The position numbers and the translations under genes are program-made. A stretch of 22,800 nucleotides of DNA from a virus. Location: positions 1 through 22,800 of IMG/VR virus record IMGVR_UViG_3300046532_002411; one strand, given 5' to 3'. Below the pieces are notes generated by a model. That model was not told the DNA's origin, ran no database searches, and was given only the letters and a program-made list of their open reading frames with translations. Positions 4,837-14,904 of the stretch are shown in pieces (positions within the stretch are counted from its first letter, which is position 1; every line of letters begins with the position of its first letter).

Positions 4837-5042
4837 TGCTGATACAGACCGATGACCGCAAGCATGTACGGGACACCTATAACAACGCGTTACTATTAAC
4901 CGACAAAAAGGCTCTCACGCGGTCGCGGGCCCGACGCGAATCCGCGAAGGGCGTATTGTCCCTTAGATCTGAGATTGACGAATTGCAAGCACATGTGTTA
5001 CAATTGACTTTACATGTCACACAACTTCTTAAGGCAAGATAA
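4836..5042 (+). CDS. Small coiled-coil protein of unknown function
   Basis: This 68-residue protein is highly charged, with a basic middle (KKALTRSRARRESAKG, about 24-39). Its C-terminal third shows heptad-like spacing of leucine and valine (VLSLRSEIDELQAHVLQLTLHVTQLL), suggesting a short coiled coil. It has no signal peptide or membrane segment. It is joined at both ends by one-base TAATG overlaps to a large structural gene upstream and the His-x-Asp gene downstream, so the three are probably translated as a coupled set. That tight coupling is the main reason to believe it is real. I do not recognise a family. It could be a small assembly factor or minor virion protein. Confidence 0.62.
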   Translation: MLIQTDDRKHVRDTYNNALLLTDKKALTRSRARRESAKGVLSLRSEIDELQAHVLQLTLHVTQLLKAR

Positions 5043-5728
5043 TGGCTAAGGTTGCTGGTAGTATTTGGGTCGAAGGAACCGCGCTTCATTATGTGGATAG
5101 CGCGGCTGTAGAATATTATATTATCGGCACCAACAAGGGGTCGGCCGGCGCCGGTATAAATGGCTCAATTTGGATGGAGTCTGATCGTTTACGGTATGTA
5201 GATACCTCTGGAAACATACGCGAATGTTCTACTATAGACACCTATGGTACACATACGGGCGCGGTTGCCGGATCACTGTGGATAGAAAATACTGCGGCTG
5301 GGAATCAGCAGTTACGGTATATTGCCAGCGGAACTGGTGAGAACTCCCCGCATGATGATGTGGCATTTGGGGACGTATCACATTCGGACGTGGCGCATAC
5401 CGATACGACTACACACAACGATATACATACCGATAACCATAGCGACTCTGGCGGGCCCGGCCACACGGATTCGGCCGAAGGTAGTGGCCATGCTGATCAT
5501 AACGATGATCATGGTGACCACGATGATGATAGCGATCACACTGATAACGACGGGCAGCCGCACGGAGATCACAGCGACGGCGCGGGGCACGGCGATCATA
5601 ACGATGATCATGGTGACGAAACTACCGAGTCGCACACCGATAGTTCTAGCCATTCGGACGTAGCACACACAGATGTTCCACACGCAGATGCCACACATGC
5701 TGATCAGCCCATTTACGTGGGTGCGTAA
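5042..5728 (+). CDS. Virion-like protein with 22-fold His-x-Asp C-terminal repeat
   Basis: This 228-residue protein has two parts. Residues 1-98 contain three degenerate copies of a GSIWxExxxLxYxD unit (starting at 6, 41 and 78), a short beta-type module that I associate with marine phage virion proteins. Residues 104-221 are low complexity and dominated by H-x-D: by hand count all 22 histidines in this segment are followed two residues later by aspartate, with the middle position varying among S, T, N, G, A and D. There are no cysteines in the tail. The start overlaps the upstream stop (TAATG). A radical SAM/SPASM gene carrying the same motif at its own C-terminus lies 20 bases downstream. 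The tail could bind divalent metal, be a substrate for modification by the downstream enzymes, or both; these roles are inference. Confidence 0.78.
   Translation: MAKVAGSIWVEGTALHYVDSAAVEYYIIGTNKGSAGAGINGSIWMESDRLRYVDTSGNIRECSTIDTYGTHTGAVAGSLWIENTAAGNQQLRYIASGTGENSPHDDVAFGDVSHSDVAHTDTTTHNDIHTDNHSDSGGPGHTDSAEGSGHADHNDDHGDHDDDSDHTDNDGQPHGDHSDGAGHGDHNDDHGDETTESHTDSSSHSDVAHTDVPHADATHADQPIYVGA
5351..5704 (+). repeat. His-x-Asp coding repeat
   Basis: Codons 104-221 of the preceding gene encode 22 H-x-D units with irregular spacing of 3 to 9 residues. The DNA is not a perfect tandem repeat: codons for His (CAT/CAC) and Asp (GAT/GAC) alternate freely. The protein pattern therefore appears selected rather than produced by recent slippage. 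A longer duplicated phrase, H-G-D-H-N-D-D-H-G-D or close to it, occurs around residues 150-159 and 183-192. Confidence 0.9.
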
Positions 5729-5748: not shown

Positions 5749-7008
5749 ATGAGTATTGAGATTCGACCTGTTGGCGTCAGTTGTCAGTTGCAATGCACCT
5801 ATTGTTATGAAGAGGGAATGCGAGAAGAGCAGCGATCACATCGATATGATCGTGATGCGGTATTAGCCTCCATCAAAAAACTTGGTCCCAAGGACCATTT
5901 CTCTTTATTTGGTGGGGAGTGTTTGTTATTGCCACTCCATCATCTTGAGGAACTCCTGTCAATTTCCCATGCCCGATCAGGTCGTTCATCGGTGCAGACT
6001 AATGGCGCATTGATTACCGACAAACATATTGAACTGTTCATTAAGTACAACACACATGTGGGTATTTCATTAGATGGCCCAGATGAATTAAATGACAGTC
6101 GGTGGGCAGGTACATTAGAGGCGACACGCAAGCAGACAGCACGAACGCTTCATGCGATTGATACGTTGCTTTCGTTATCGGTACAACATCCGCGTCTTCG
6201 GCCCAGTCTTATTGTCACTATGCACGCCGGGAATTCTAGTGCAGAACGATTTCCTCGGTTTGTGTCATGGCTTCATGAGTTAGATGATCGGGGGCTTAAA
6301 CAGATAAATCTTCATACAATGGAGATGGATCACAAAGCAGATACATTATACCTGCCACAAGAAGAATTGTCGGATCGGTTATTGGACATTTGGCGAATCC
6401 ATGTTCCAACATTTAAGCAACTACGCATGTCTAAATTTGAGGAGATTTTGAAACTCCTCAGGGGTGCTGATGATGTCGTGTGTCATTGGAAACCGTGCGA
6501 CCCGTGGAATACAAGTGCCGTCAACGGTATTGAGAACGACGGTTCTGTCTCTCACTGCTCGCGAACAAACAAAGACGGGTTCAACTGGATGCCAGCAGAG
6601 GGGTCGGGCGACCCAAATGGTAGTTTCATAGGGCACCCAGGCGCTCGCCACTATGAACGACAGATGGCGCTCTACCAAGCACCACAAGAATTTGGTGGAT
6701 GCAAAGATTGTGAATATTGGTTGATGTGCTACGGTCAATGCCCAGGCGAAGGGCAGTCCAATGATTGGCGAATGCGTTCTACATATTGTTCAACATACAA
6801 GAAGTTATTTGCAGAAGGCGCACGAAGACTTCGTGAGGCGGGGACGATTCCGCTGTGTGACTGGACGAATAGAAAAGAACTTGAGCAGGCAGCGTTTTCG
6901 AAATGGCAGAATCAATCATCGTCACACTTATCAACATTAACCGGGCAGCCCAACGGCGGTAGGCAATCTCACGGCGATCACACGGATCACAATGATAATA
7001 CATTATGA
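5749..7008 (+). CDS. Radical SAM/SPASM enzyme with His-x-Asp C-terminal tail
   Basis: This 419-residue protein is a radical S-adenosylmethionine enzyme. The CX3CX2C cluster site is at C12, C16 and C19, the GGE motif at 55-57, and the SLDGP strand typical of SPASM-type maturases at 107-111. The C-terminal auxiliary-cluster domain shows C250, C270, then C318-X2-C321-X5-C327-X3-C331 and C347, the classic SPASM arrangement. Such enzymes commonly modify peptides or proteins by radical chemistry. Unusually, the last residues add three contiguous H-x-D units (408-416), matching the tail of the gene just upstream, and both share a GQP lead-in. The stop overlaps the next start as ATGA. No clear Shine-Dalgarno is present; the start follows an A-rich stretch. 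By hand count it uses about 14 TTA leucine codons against two to four in the terminase or portal genes, hinting at a different origin. The substrate is inferred, not shown. Confidence 0.88.
   Translation: MSIEIRPVGVSCQLQCTYCYEEGMREEQRSHRYDRDAVLASIKKLGPKDHFSLFGGECLLLPLHHLEELLSISHARSGRSSVQTNGALITDKHIELFIKYNTHVGISLDGPDELNDSRWAGTLEATRKQTARTLHAIDTLLSLSVQHPRLRPSLIVTMHAGNSSAERFPRFVSWLHELDDRGLKQINLHTMEMDHKADTLYLPQEELSDRLLDIWRIHVPTFKQLRMSKFEEILKLLRGADDVVCHWKPCDPWNTSAVNGIENDGSVSHCSRTNKDGFNWMPAEGSGDPNGSFIGHPGARHYERQMALYQAPQEFGGCKDCEYWLMCYGQCPGEGQSNDWRMRSTYCSTYKKLFAEGARRLREAGTIPLCDWTNRKELEQAAFSKWQNQSSSHLSTLTGQPNGGRQSHGDHTDHNDNTL
6970..6996 (+). repeat. Three H-x-D units at the radical SAM C-terminus
   Basis: These codons encode HGD-HTD-HND immediately before the end of the radical SAM protein, beyond the SPASM cysteines and a poorly conserved linker. 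The same three units occur in the upstream His-x-Asp protein. This is outside any domain needed for iron-sulfur binding. Confidence 0.88.
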
Positions 7009-13075: not shown

Positions 13076-14170
13076 ATGAATCCATCGCCATATAGCCCGA
13101 TGAAAGTGTACTGGCATCGCGACCGCCTCGATGCACTCGCTCGCGGCGAAGTCCCTTCACCCACACAAGTCCAACTGATCATCAGCGATCTTTGTAATCA
13201 GGATTGTAGCTTTTGCGCGTATCGTATGAGTGGCAACCTCAGCAATGAATTGTTTGGTGAGGCGCGTGAAGATGGCAGTGTCAATAACAATCCGAATCGT
13301 ATGATTTCGTACGAGAAGATTATCGAGATTTTAGAAGACTCCGCAGCGATGGGCGTCAAGGCGATTCAGTTGACCGGTGGTGGCGAACCCACTGTACATC
13401 CCAAGTTTGAACAGGTTGTGGAAAAGTGTTACGAGCTTGGATTGGAAGTTGGCGTCGTGACGAATGGTGTCAAGCTCACACCGAAGCTGATTGATCTACT
13501 CACGAAAGCGATGTGGGTGCGCGTGAGTGTGGATGCATCAACCGTCGATTCGTATGTCTCCATTCGTAATGTGCCTATCGCGCACTACACGCGTGTGTGG
13601 AATAACATCAAAGCGTTAGCGGAACGAAAGAAGGCCACGGGTAGCAACGTAACGATTGGTGTCGGGTTCGTTGTCACCAAGGAAAATTATAAAGAAGTCG
13701 TTGATGCTACCGCCCAAGCACGGGCAGCCGGGGTGGACAACTTTCGTATTAGCGCCGTATTTCAGCCAGAAGACGAAAAGTATTTTGAGACATTTCACGC
13801 AGAGGCCGTCAAGCTCTGTAGTGATGCGGAAGTATTAGGGTCAGATACATATCAAGTCGTGAATATGTTTGGTGACCGCGTGAGTGACTTGGTGCTGAAG
13901 TATCCCGATTATGAGTTCTGCGGGTATCAACACTTCAATACCTATATCGGTGCGGACCTGAATGTGTATCGTTGTTGTGTGCTTGCGTATAACACACGCG
14001 GCGTTGTTGGTTCACTCAAGGAACAGACGTTTGCACACTTGTGGGCAAATGACGCGCCCGGCGCATTTAAGGGCTTCGATGCGGGTGGATGTCCTCGCTG
14101 CCAGTTCAATAATAAGAACCGCGAAATCATTCGGGCTCTGGTGACGCCGCCACATGTGAATTTTGTATGA
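13076..14170 (+). CDS. Radical SAM protein with SPASM/twitch-like C-terminus
   Basis: This 364-residue protein is a second radical SAM enzyme, not closely similar to the first. The CX3CX2C site is C40, C44, C47; GGGEP is at 101-105; VVTNG at 127-131; and VRVSVDAST at 148-156. C-terminal cysteines C282, C300, C301, C339 and C342 suit an auxiliary cluster of the SPASM or shorter twitch type (YRCC..GVVGSLKEQTFAHLW..GGCPRCQ). The substrate is unknown. It sits between small and large terminase genes, and its stop overlaps the glycosyltransferase start as ATGA, so the two are probably made together and may act in one pathway. A GAGG ribosome site is seven bases from the start. Codon use resembles the neighbouring structural genes, suggesting longer residence in the genome than the first cassette. 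Confidence 0.88.
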   Translation: MNPSPYSPMKVYWHRDRLDALARGEVPSPTQVQLIISDLCNQDCSFCAYRMSGNLSNELFGEAREDGSVNNNPNRMISYEKIIEILEDSAAMGVKAIQLTGGGEPTVHPKFEQVVEKCYELGLEVGVVTNGVKLTPKLIDLLTKAMWVRVSVDASTVDSYVSIRNVPIAHYTRVWNNIKALAERKKATGSNVTIGVGFVVTKENYKEVVDATAQARAAGVDNFRISAVFQPEDEKYFETFHAEAVKLCSDAEVLGSDTYQVVNMFGDRVSDLVLKYPDYEFCGYQHFNTYIGADLNVYRCCVLAYNTRGVVGSLKEQTFAHLWANDAPGAFKGFDAGGCPRCQFNNKNREIIRALVTPPHVNFV

Positions 14171-14904
14171 TGCGAGCGTCGGTCGTGTTGTCTACATACA
14201 ACCGTGCCGACATTCTGAACGGCACACTTGCTTCCATCTTTCGTCAGCAGGTACCGTTTGACTATGAGGTCATCGTCGTTGATGACGGTTCGTCTGATCA
14301 CACGACGGAGGTGCTGTCACGCTATCCCGTGGTCACGGAACGTATCGAGCGCCCAGAGGGACATCGCAATCCAGCATATCCACGCAATCGAGCTATCGCA
14401 TTAGCGTCGAGTGATATTCTGATCATGCAGTCGGATGATGTATGGCACGAAACAGCACAGACGATTGAAGAACTCACCAATGCGGCGACCGCACAGCCGA
14501 ACGCCGCGTTCTTCGCCACCGTCTATAATGTCAACGCCGACGGTGTGGTGATTGATACGTTTGTCCATCCGCGCACACGACGGCGCGCATTATTCTTTCT
14601 TGGTGCCATTCACAAGTCGCGTCTGTGTGCGATTGGTGGAAATGATGAAGCCTTCACGGAAGCAGGATATGAAGATGCGTGGTTGCGAGACTGTCTACAG
14701 CACGGCGCGCAGTGCCCGTTCGTGTTCTTGAGCGGGCCCGTCGCGCACCACCAAGATCATACGCGCCCCTCGAAAGATTACGGTACACAGCGTGGCACGA
14801 AGGCGATGCGGAAACTTTATAAGCACAAATGTACGGAAGCGTCACGCGGAGCTATTCCATGGCGCGCAGAGATAAGTAGTTTATATGCCGAAGAGTACGC
14901 GTAG
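14167..14904 (+). CDS. Family 2 glycosyltransferase
   Basis: This 245-residue protein has the GT-A fold features of family 2 glycosyltransferases: SVVLSTYNRADIL (5-17), VIVVDDGSSD (35-44), the metal-binding DxD-like LIMQSDDVW (85-93), and an acidic GYEDAWLRDCLQHG catalytic-base region (168-180). HHQDH at 194-198 may add metal ligands. It transfers a sugar from a nucleotide donor to an unidentified acceptor. No membrane segment is seen, so it should be cytoplasmic. It overlaps the radical SAM gene by four bases and the large terminase gene by 20, placing it firmly in the late operon. Possible acceptors are virion proteins, for example the Ser/Pro tail of gp15, or DNA; neither is shown. Two ATG codons at 14167 and 14170 are both possible starts. 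Confidence 0.88.
   Translation: MMRASVVLSTYNRADILNGTLASIFRQQVPFDYEVIVVDDGSSDHTTEVLSRYPVVTERIERPEGHRNPAYPRNRAIALASSDILIMQSDDVWHETAQTIEELTNAATAQPNAAFFATVYNVNADGVVIDTFVHPRTRRRALFFLGAIHKSRLCAIGGNDEAFTEAGYEDAWLRDCLQHGAQCPFVFLSGPVAHHQDHTRPSKDYGTQRGTKAMRKLYKHKCTEASRGAIPWRAEISSLYAEEYA

Follow-up and report, generated by a model that had tools for sequence, protein, structure and literature searches.

Why would a radical SAM (rSAM) enzyme carry at its own C-terminus a peptide that resembles its presumed substrate? This question arises from a stretch of 22,800 nucleotides of viral DNA (IMG/VR record IMGVR_UViG_3300046532_002411, hereafter the window), where the recognised genes for tail sheath, tube, sheath stabilizer, portal, neck protein and terminase correspond to a contractile-tailed phage. 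In this 22.8 kb record, the genes of a module composed of an HxD-array virion protein, an rSAM/SPASM enzyme and a DUF483(-methyltransferase) lie in tandem, with a large tail-region protein on one side and the neck genes on the other (Table 1), and the start of the third gene overlaps the stop codon of the second (ATGA).

The C-terminus of the enzyme is TGQPNGGRQSHGDHTDHNDNTL, followed by the stop codon. As claimed by a first reading of the letters alone (the sequence-only reading), it holds three contiguous H-x-D units, HGD (6970-6978), HTD (6979-6987) and HND (6988-6996), after which come NTL and the stop. At least three HxD units would fall within the last 60 residues by chance with a probability of 7e-4 if the protein is shuffled as a whole, or of 4e-4 from the composition of the last 40 residues. 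The upstream protein, which begins with three GS-x-W-x-E ... L-x-Y-x-D repeats, continues with the array and ends in HADQPIYVGA, does contain the GQP-HGD-HSD string on which the likeness had been based, among 22 HxD units. The echo of GQP in the linker of the enzyme held only in part: the triplet occurs in both proteins, its G beginning in the enzyme gene 3 bases upstream of the start quoted in that reading (6946), but among 27 aligned C-termini of the family only the window enzyme has it, so this part of the echo is probably chance.

Table 1. Coordinates of the module features in the window
Feature	Position	Strand	Basis
HxD-array protein, presumed substrate, 228 aa, 22 HxD units	5042..5728	+	Sequence, array grammar, virion proteins of relatives
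Radical SAM/SPASM enzyme, 419 aa	5749..7008	+	Pfam, NCBIfam, alignment, AlphaFold2, fold match
Variable linker from the C-terminal helices to the tail, includes the non-conserved GQP	6913..6969	+	Codon changes, alignment
Substrate-like tail HGD-HTD-HND, enzyme C-terminus	6970..6996	+	Conservation, codon selection, predicted disorder
DUF483 fused to a SAM methyltransferase, 458 aa	7005..8381	+	Pfam, neighbourhood, fold match

The enzyme and its family

The enzyme matches PF04055 above the cut-off (Pfam, E 2e-14), and in an alignment of 69 sequences the cluster cysteines (C12, C16 and C19) and the SPASM cysteines (C245, C250, C270, C318, C321, C327, C331 and C347) are invariant. With the CxxxCxxC motif and the SPASM cysteines present, its sequence places it in the SPASM subgroup of the radical SAM superfamily. 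AlphaFold2 predicts a confident SPASM fold (pLDDT 90) with a disordered tail, the pLDDT being below 50 for residues 407-409 and 412-419, and the active site is not occupied by the tail in this model. In the fold search, the closest solved folds were tied, these being ChlB (Z 30.0), a multiple cyclophane synthase according to the title of a reference in PMC12636437, and anSME (Z 29.6).

The enzyme passes no curated NCBIfam cut-off, those of the cyclophane families included. Its best score corresponds to anSME (TIGR03942), with 86 bits against a cut-off of 349, and all the cyclophane maturase models score below their cut-offs: AmcB (75 against 425 bits), YhhB (61 against 445), GrrM (49 against 310), FxsB (35 against 370) and XyeB (32 against 450). 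In the tree, the family forms a clade of its own with a support of 100, beside the GrrM and anSME references. anSME targets Cys or Ser in sulfatases and makes formylglycine. The family resembles anSME in the fold, in the SPASM layout and in this top score, but differs in remaining below the cut-off, in its separate clade and in the His/aromatic-x-Asp array that would be its target; the proteins scanned or annotated in the neighbourhood included no sulfatase, and the partner is the HxD-array protein. An identity as viperin or pVip was also considered and rejected, because the score for NF038283 (42 bits) does not reach the cut-off of 180 and the PADLOC pVip match spans only residues 11-125, that is, the shared rSAM core.

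Homologues come from three Thermus phages (Cumys, phiMa and phiLo; 37-40% identity) and from alignment scans of IMG/VR and GTDB genomes. The family is mostly phage-borne and rare in cellular genomes, being found in 1 of the 296 genomes sampled in one phylum, which is the centre genome itself. It is a large family of phage enzymes that is almost unstudied.

Partner arrays and their grammar

Across 82 non-redundant arrays, the residue at position i+2 of His is Asp 2396 times and Asn 288 times, which together represent about 97%. When HxD is masked, the enriched i,i+2 pairs in these arrays are HxN (z 35), FxN (26), YxD (22), FxD (15) and WxD (6), and none of the non-aromatic residues tested before x-[DN] was clearly above expectation. 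As read from the sequences, the partner arrays follow a [His/Phe/Tyr/Trp]-x-[Asp/Asn] pattern, which is the Omega1-X2-X3 substrate grammar of the three-residue cyclophane ("triceptide") enzymes. The pairs known to be joined in three-residue cyclophanes are Trp-Asn/Asp, Phe-Asn, Tyr-Asp and His-Ala/Arg, and the review that lists them (PMC11002830) has no case of a His-to-Asp cyclophane. Because the pairs of the arrays match those joined by known cyclophane enzymes, a reading of the module as a protein modification system is supported, and the enzyme, judged by its substrate grammar, would putatively work like a cyclophane enzyme. Counted against the cyclophane reading are the fit of the anSME fold, as good as that of ChlB, and the scores of the family below every NCBIfam cyclophane cut-off.

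A different explanation is a metal-binding tag, in which tail and arrays would chelate Fe, Ni or Zn and the rSAM enzyme would do something unrelated to the motif. The iron-loaded HxH needle in the long tail fibre of T4 is a precedent for metal binding in phage fibres, and the strictness of His and Asp in the tails, where HxN is found in 0 of 286 units, would agree with this option. Thus, the tail alone fits the metal tag listed in the sequence-only reading, but the partner arrays and their grammar do not, since they are enriched in FxN, YxD and FxD, Phe is not a metal ligand and would not be used by a metal-binding array, and non-aromatic first residues are not enriched. Plain metal binding is therefore disfavoured for the arrays, and the metal tag seems to us decidedly improbable.

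The arrays are carried by GSxWxE-repeat proteins and, among the relatives, by collagen-like tail fibres and LamG virion proteins. For example, a collagen-like tail fibre with GXY repeats (L116, 2510-4186) bears an HxD/HxN array. In phiLo (L004, 13807-17307, minus strand), two very HxD-rich proteins of 72 and about 99 units are located 4-8 kb from the rSAM gene and on the opposite strand, so adjacency of the partner is not required. Also, a cyanobacterial KilA-N protein with an HxD array at its end (L082, 7110-7874, minus strand) lies beside a tail-less member of the family.

A tblastn search in phages with the HxD protein found no match, probably owing to low-complexity filtering, and DNA-pattern scans gave 114 arrays of at least 8 HxD units. 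Since a family rSAM is present in the same locus for only 65 of them, and in only 5 of the 22 records searched whole, array and enzyme do not appear to be strictly linked in the data examined; some of the arrays without a family rSAM in the locus are low-complexity repeats or fragments. Phage HxD-array proteins also occur in L187, L216 and L238, whose contigs (36-78 kb) lack a family rSAM, and these arrays are possibly fragments, or modified by another enzyme. No paper on HxD fibre arrays with an rSAM enzyme was found in the open-access literature.

The Thermus phages Cumys and phiMa hold the same three genes as direct homologues (about 40% identity). In PMC11437467, their module is proposed to act in DNA modification, one of the three genes being of unknown function, and the passages on it mention neither HxD arrays nor the tail. 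The same paper describes homologues beside deazapurine DNA-modification genes in some cyanobacteria, which would favour an action on DNA. However, this gene of unknown function encodes an HxD-array protein in Cumys and phiMa, its counterpart in the window and in many relatives is found among tail genes, and the predicted fold of the enzyme matches peptide maturases. We thus consider DNA modification very unlikely. Instead, the HxD protein may supply the Thermus-type module with a protein substrate. Protein modification, with a named substrate, would in this way become a reading for a module for which an action on DNA has been suggested until now.

Conservation of the tail

The sequence-only reading regarded the tail as an unusual feature, a piece of the presumed substrate carried by the enzyme. 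The resemblance holds, but the tail is no oddity of the window: at least two HxD units follow the SPASM core in 55 of 69 non-redundant relatives, with a maximum of 24, whereas only 1 of 43 other rSAM proteins from the same scans, taken as a control, has even one HxD (a single unit) in its last 60 residues. Because of this conservation, the tail is almost certainly functional. The linker that precedes it has a median of 39 residues in the family. Moreover, the tail occurs in every deep branch, and a minimum of 4 changes is enough on a tree built from the core only, versus 13 for shuffled labels; therefore, an early origin followed by a few losses is probable. No other convincing protein with such a tail was found in these modules.

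At the codon level, for relatives at 60-98% core identity, 5.0% of the His and 4.5% of the Asp codons of the tail are changed non-synonymously, compared with 30% in the core, 28% at the x positions of the tail and 55-56% in the linker and the other tail residues; pairs are non-independent here and the alignment favours matching H and D, the contrast being nonetheless large. Synonymous differences are present in 38-45% of the comparisons of these same His and Asp codons. This pattern indicates that they are under purifying selection.

These data bear on the possibility that the tail is a scar of recombination with the upstream repeat gene. The tail does resemble the units of that gene, and GQP occurs in both, but its DNA is no closer to the partner gene than expected from resampling of synonymous codons (score of 19 versus 17.3 +/- 2.5). 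Together with the conservation across the family and the selection on codons, this refutes the scar, to which we assign next to no probability.

Conserved as it is, the tail is dispensable, because 14 of the 69 members go without it, and an HxD partner is visible for at least 8 of these. An HxD protein is in view at 53 of the 55 tailed loci. The expectation that the tail would be found only next to an HxD protein is then borne out in one direction: on these loci, the tail implies the partner and the partner does not need the tail. A duplicated arrangement is observed in L016 (8001-11451), L017 (8001-11129), L018 (103-3492) and L020 (8001-11390), where two tandem rSAM paralogues, both HxD-tailed, are followed by one DUF483 gene; the longest of these tails have 24-25 HxD units.

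The tail has its own dialect

A comparison of tails and partner arrays shows that tails match the tails of other phages best (mean best score of 119 versus 61 for partners), and that the own partner is no better match to a tail than the partners of other phages (median rank 0.38). HGD represents 57% of the units in tails versus 14% in partners (p 6e-53), HGDHxD is present in 39 of 55 tails versus 11 of 66 partners, and HxN, absent from the 286 tail units, accounts for 288 of 2684 partner units (p 7e-14). Also, Phe and Tyr units are almost absent from tails. The tail corresponds to a stricter HGD/HTD dialect and not to a plain copy of the partner, and because it never uses HxN and almost never Phe or Tyr units, it is not simply "more substrate".

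Moreover, in L109, L119, L122, L148 and L162 the partner has moved towards HxN or FxN units and the tail has kept HxD. The tail must then have a reader that does not vary in the family, which would be either the site of the enzyme itself or DUF483, and not the fibre of each locus. In L148, L161, L162, L109, L119 and L122, HxN or FxN units of the partner are near or above HxD in number, and the tails, where complete, are HxD.

A docking function would imply that the tail and the fibre array, both built of HxD units, bind to each other, like with like, perhaps by a shared metal or by co-assembly, and that the enzyme is thereby held on the long repeats. A substrate of many repeats is found at nearly all tailed loci and the tail is predicted to be flexible, both in agreement with docking. 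Nonetheless, the dialect is independent of the own partner, as seen from the rank of 0.38 and from the HGD/HTD units kept when the partner is HxN/FxN, and we regard docking as unlikely.

The other candidate for a constant reader is the DUF483-methyltransferase. Its match to PF04467 (E 6e-5) falls below the gathering score and is accompanied by methyltransferase domains; the fold search, for a fusion not split by domain, points to a Rossmann methyltransferase fold, with methyltransferases among the matches listed. DUF483 of the window and its relatives share a G[YF]PxCC motif that is nearly invariant, as well as one more invariant cysteine (C205). The tail could be a handle that docks to this neighbouring enzyme or is methylated by it. 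DUF483 homologues adjoin the rSAM gene at nearly all loci, and in one clade, where DUF483 lies upstream of the rSAM gene, the tail is missing in 7 of 8 loci, which would agree with such a handle. However, this clade represents one or two tree events at most, one of its loci (L025) keeps the tail, and six tail-less loci have DUF483 abutting downstream. The handle would accordingly have a low probability.

Proposed mechanism and comparison with known systems

The reading that we prefer, tentatively and at slightly less than an even chance, is that of a fibre cross-linking module whose enzyme bears in cis a substrate-like tail read by its own active site, as a self-modified peptide or a pseudosubstrate. 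From features taken from the sequence (tail, conservation, dialect, module, grammar and fold), we infer the cyclophane chemistry, the role in the virion and the reading of the tail by the active site. The three genes would form a phage post-translational modification module, in which the rSAM/SPASM enzyme would act on the [His/Phe/Tyr/Trp]-x-[Asp/Asn] units of the neighbouring fibre protein. The most likely chemistry would be a bond between the aromatic ring at position i and the beta-carbon at position i+2, giving a three-residue cyclophane, and these rings would stiffen the array. The DUF483-methyltransferase would help or add a second step. The flexible tail would be a built-in, stricter HGD-HTD motif whose reader does not vary, this reader being most likely the active site of the family itself, and would either be modified in cis (or between subunits) or act as a pseudosubstrate that fills the site until the fibre arrives.

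A wider proposal, possible but on the unlikely side, is a widespread phage system in which dozens of His-Asp (and Phe-Asn and Tyr-Asp) cyclophanes would give hyper-cross-linked tail fibres, the enzyme being primed, or kept under control, by the copy of the motif at its C-terminus, which it would itself modify. If true, virions would be reinforced covalently by this means, and new enzymes for the cross-linking of large substrates could be drawn from the family. Cyclophane chemistry comes so far from small secreted peptides, whereas here the arrays that show the grammar reach about a hundred units, and the array-bearing proteins are tail-fibre or virion proteins in several phages. The conserved tail also poses a testable question, which is why a strict copy of the target motif, modified or not, would be under strong selection.

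To our knowledge, a substrate in cis is not known in radical SAM enzymes. The nearest precedent for the layout corresponds to the borosins (omphalotin precursor), in which the substrate peptide is at the C-terminus of the enzyme itself, which methylates it (PMC7878506). However, the borosin enzyme is an N-methyltransferase and its tail is its product, whereas here a separate fibre protein would apparently be the main substrate and the tail a stricter variant.

The triceptide maturases (XncB, OscB/GrrM, MscB, YxdB, HaaB and YhhB; also ChlB) are alike in the rSAM/SPASM architecture and in having aromatic-x-Asp/Asn targets within repeats, and in fold the enzyme is tied between ChlB and anSME. They differ in using a short leader-core peptide instead of a large virion-associated array protein, and the enzyme described here is set apart by scores below all NCBIfam cut-offs, a clade of its own, the motif on itself and the DUF483 partner. 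In the case of the His-Xaa-Ser (Hxs) systems, an rSAM enzyme also lies beside a protein with His-x-residue repeats (PMC9062424), but these have Ser where the arrays described here have Asp or Asn, and Hxs models are not among the best 25 NCBIfam matches of the enzyme.

Finally, the window possibly holds another modification pair, located between the tail and terminase genes. It consists of a second radical SAM protein (13076-14170), whose PHROG matches to radical SAM families are weak, and, after it, a glycosyltransferase-like gene (14167-14904).
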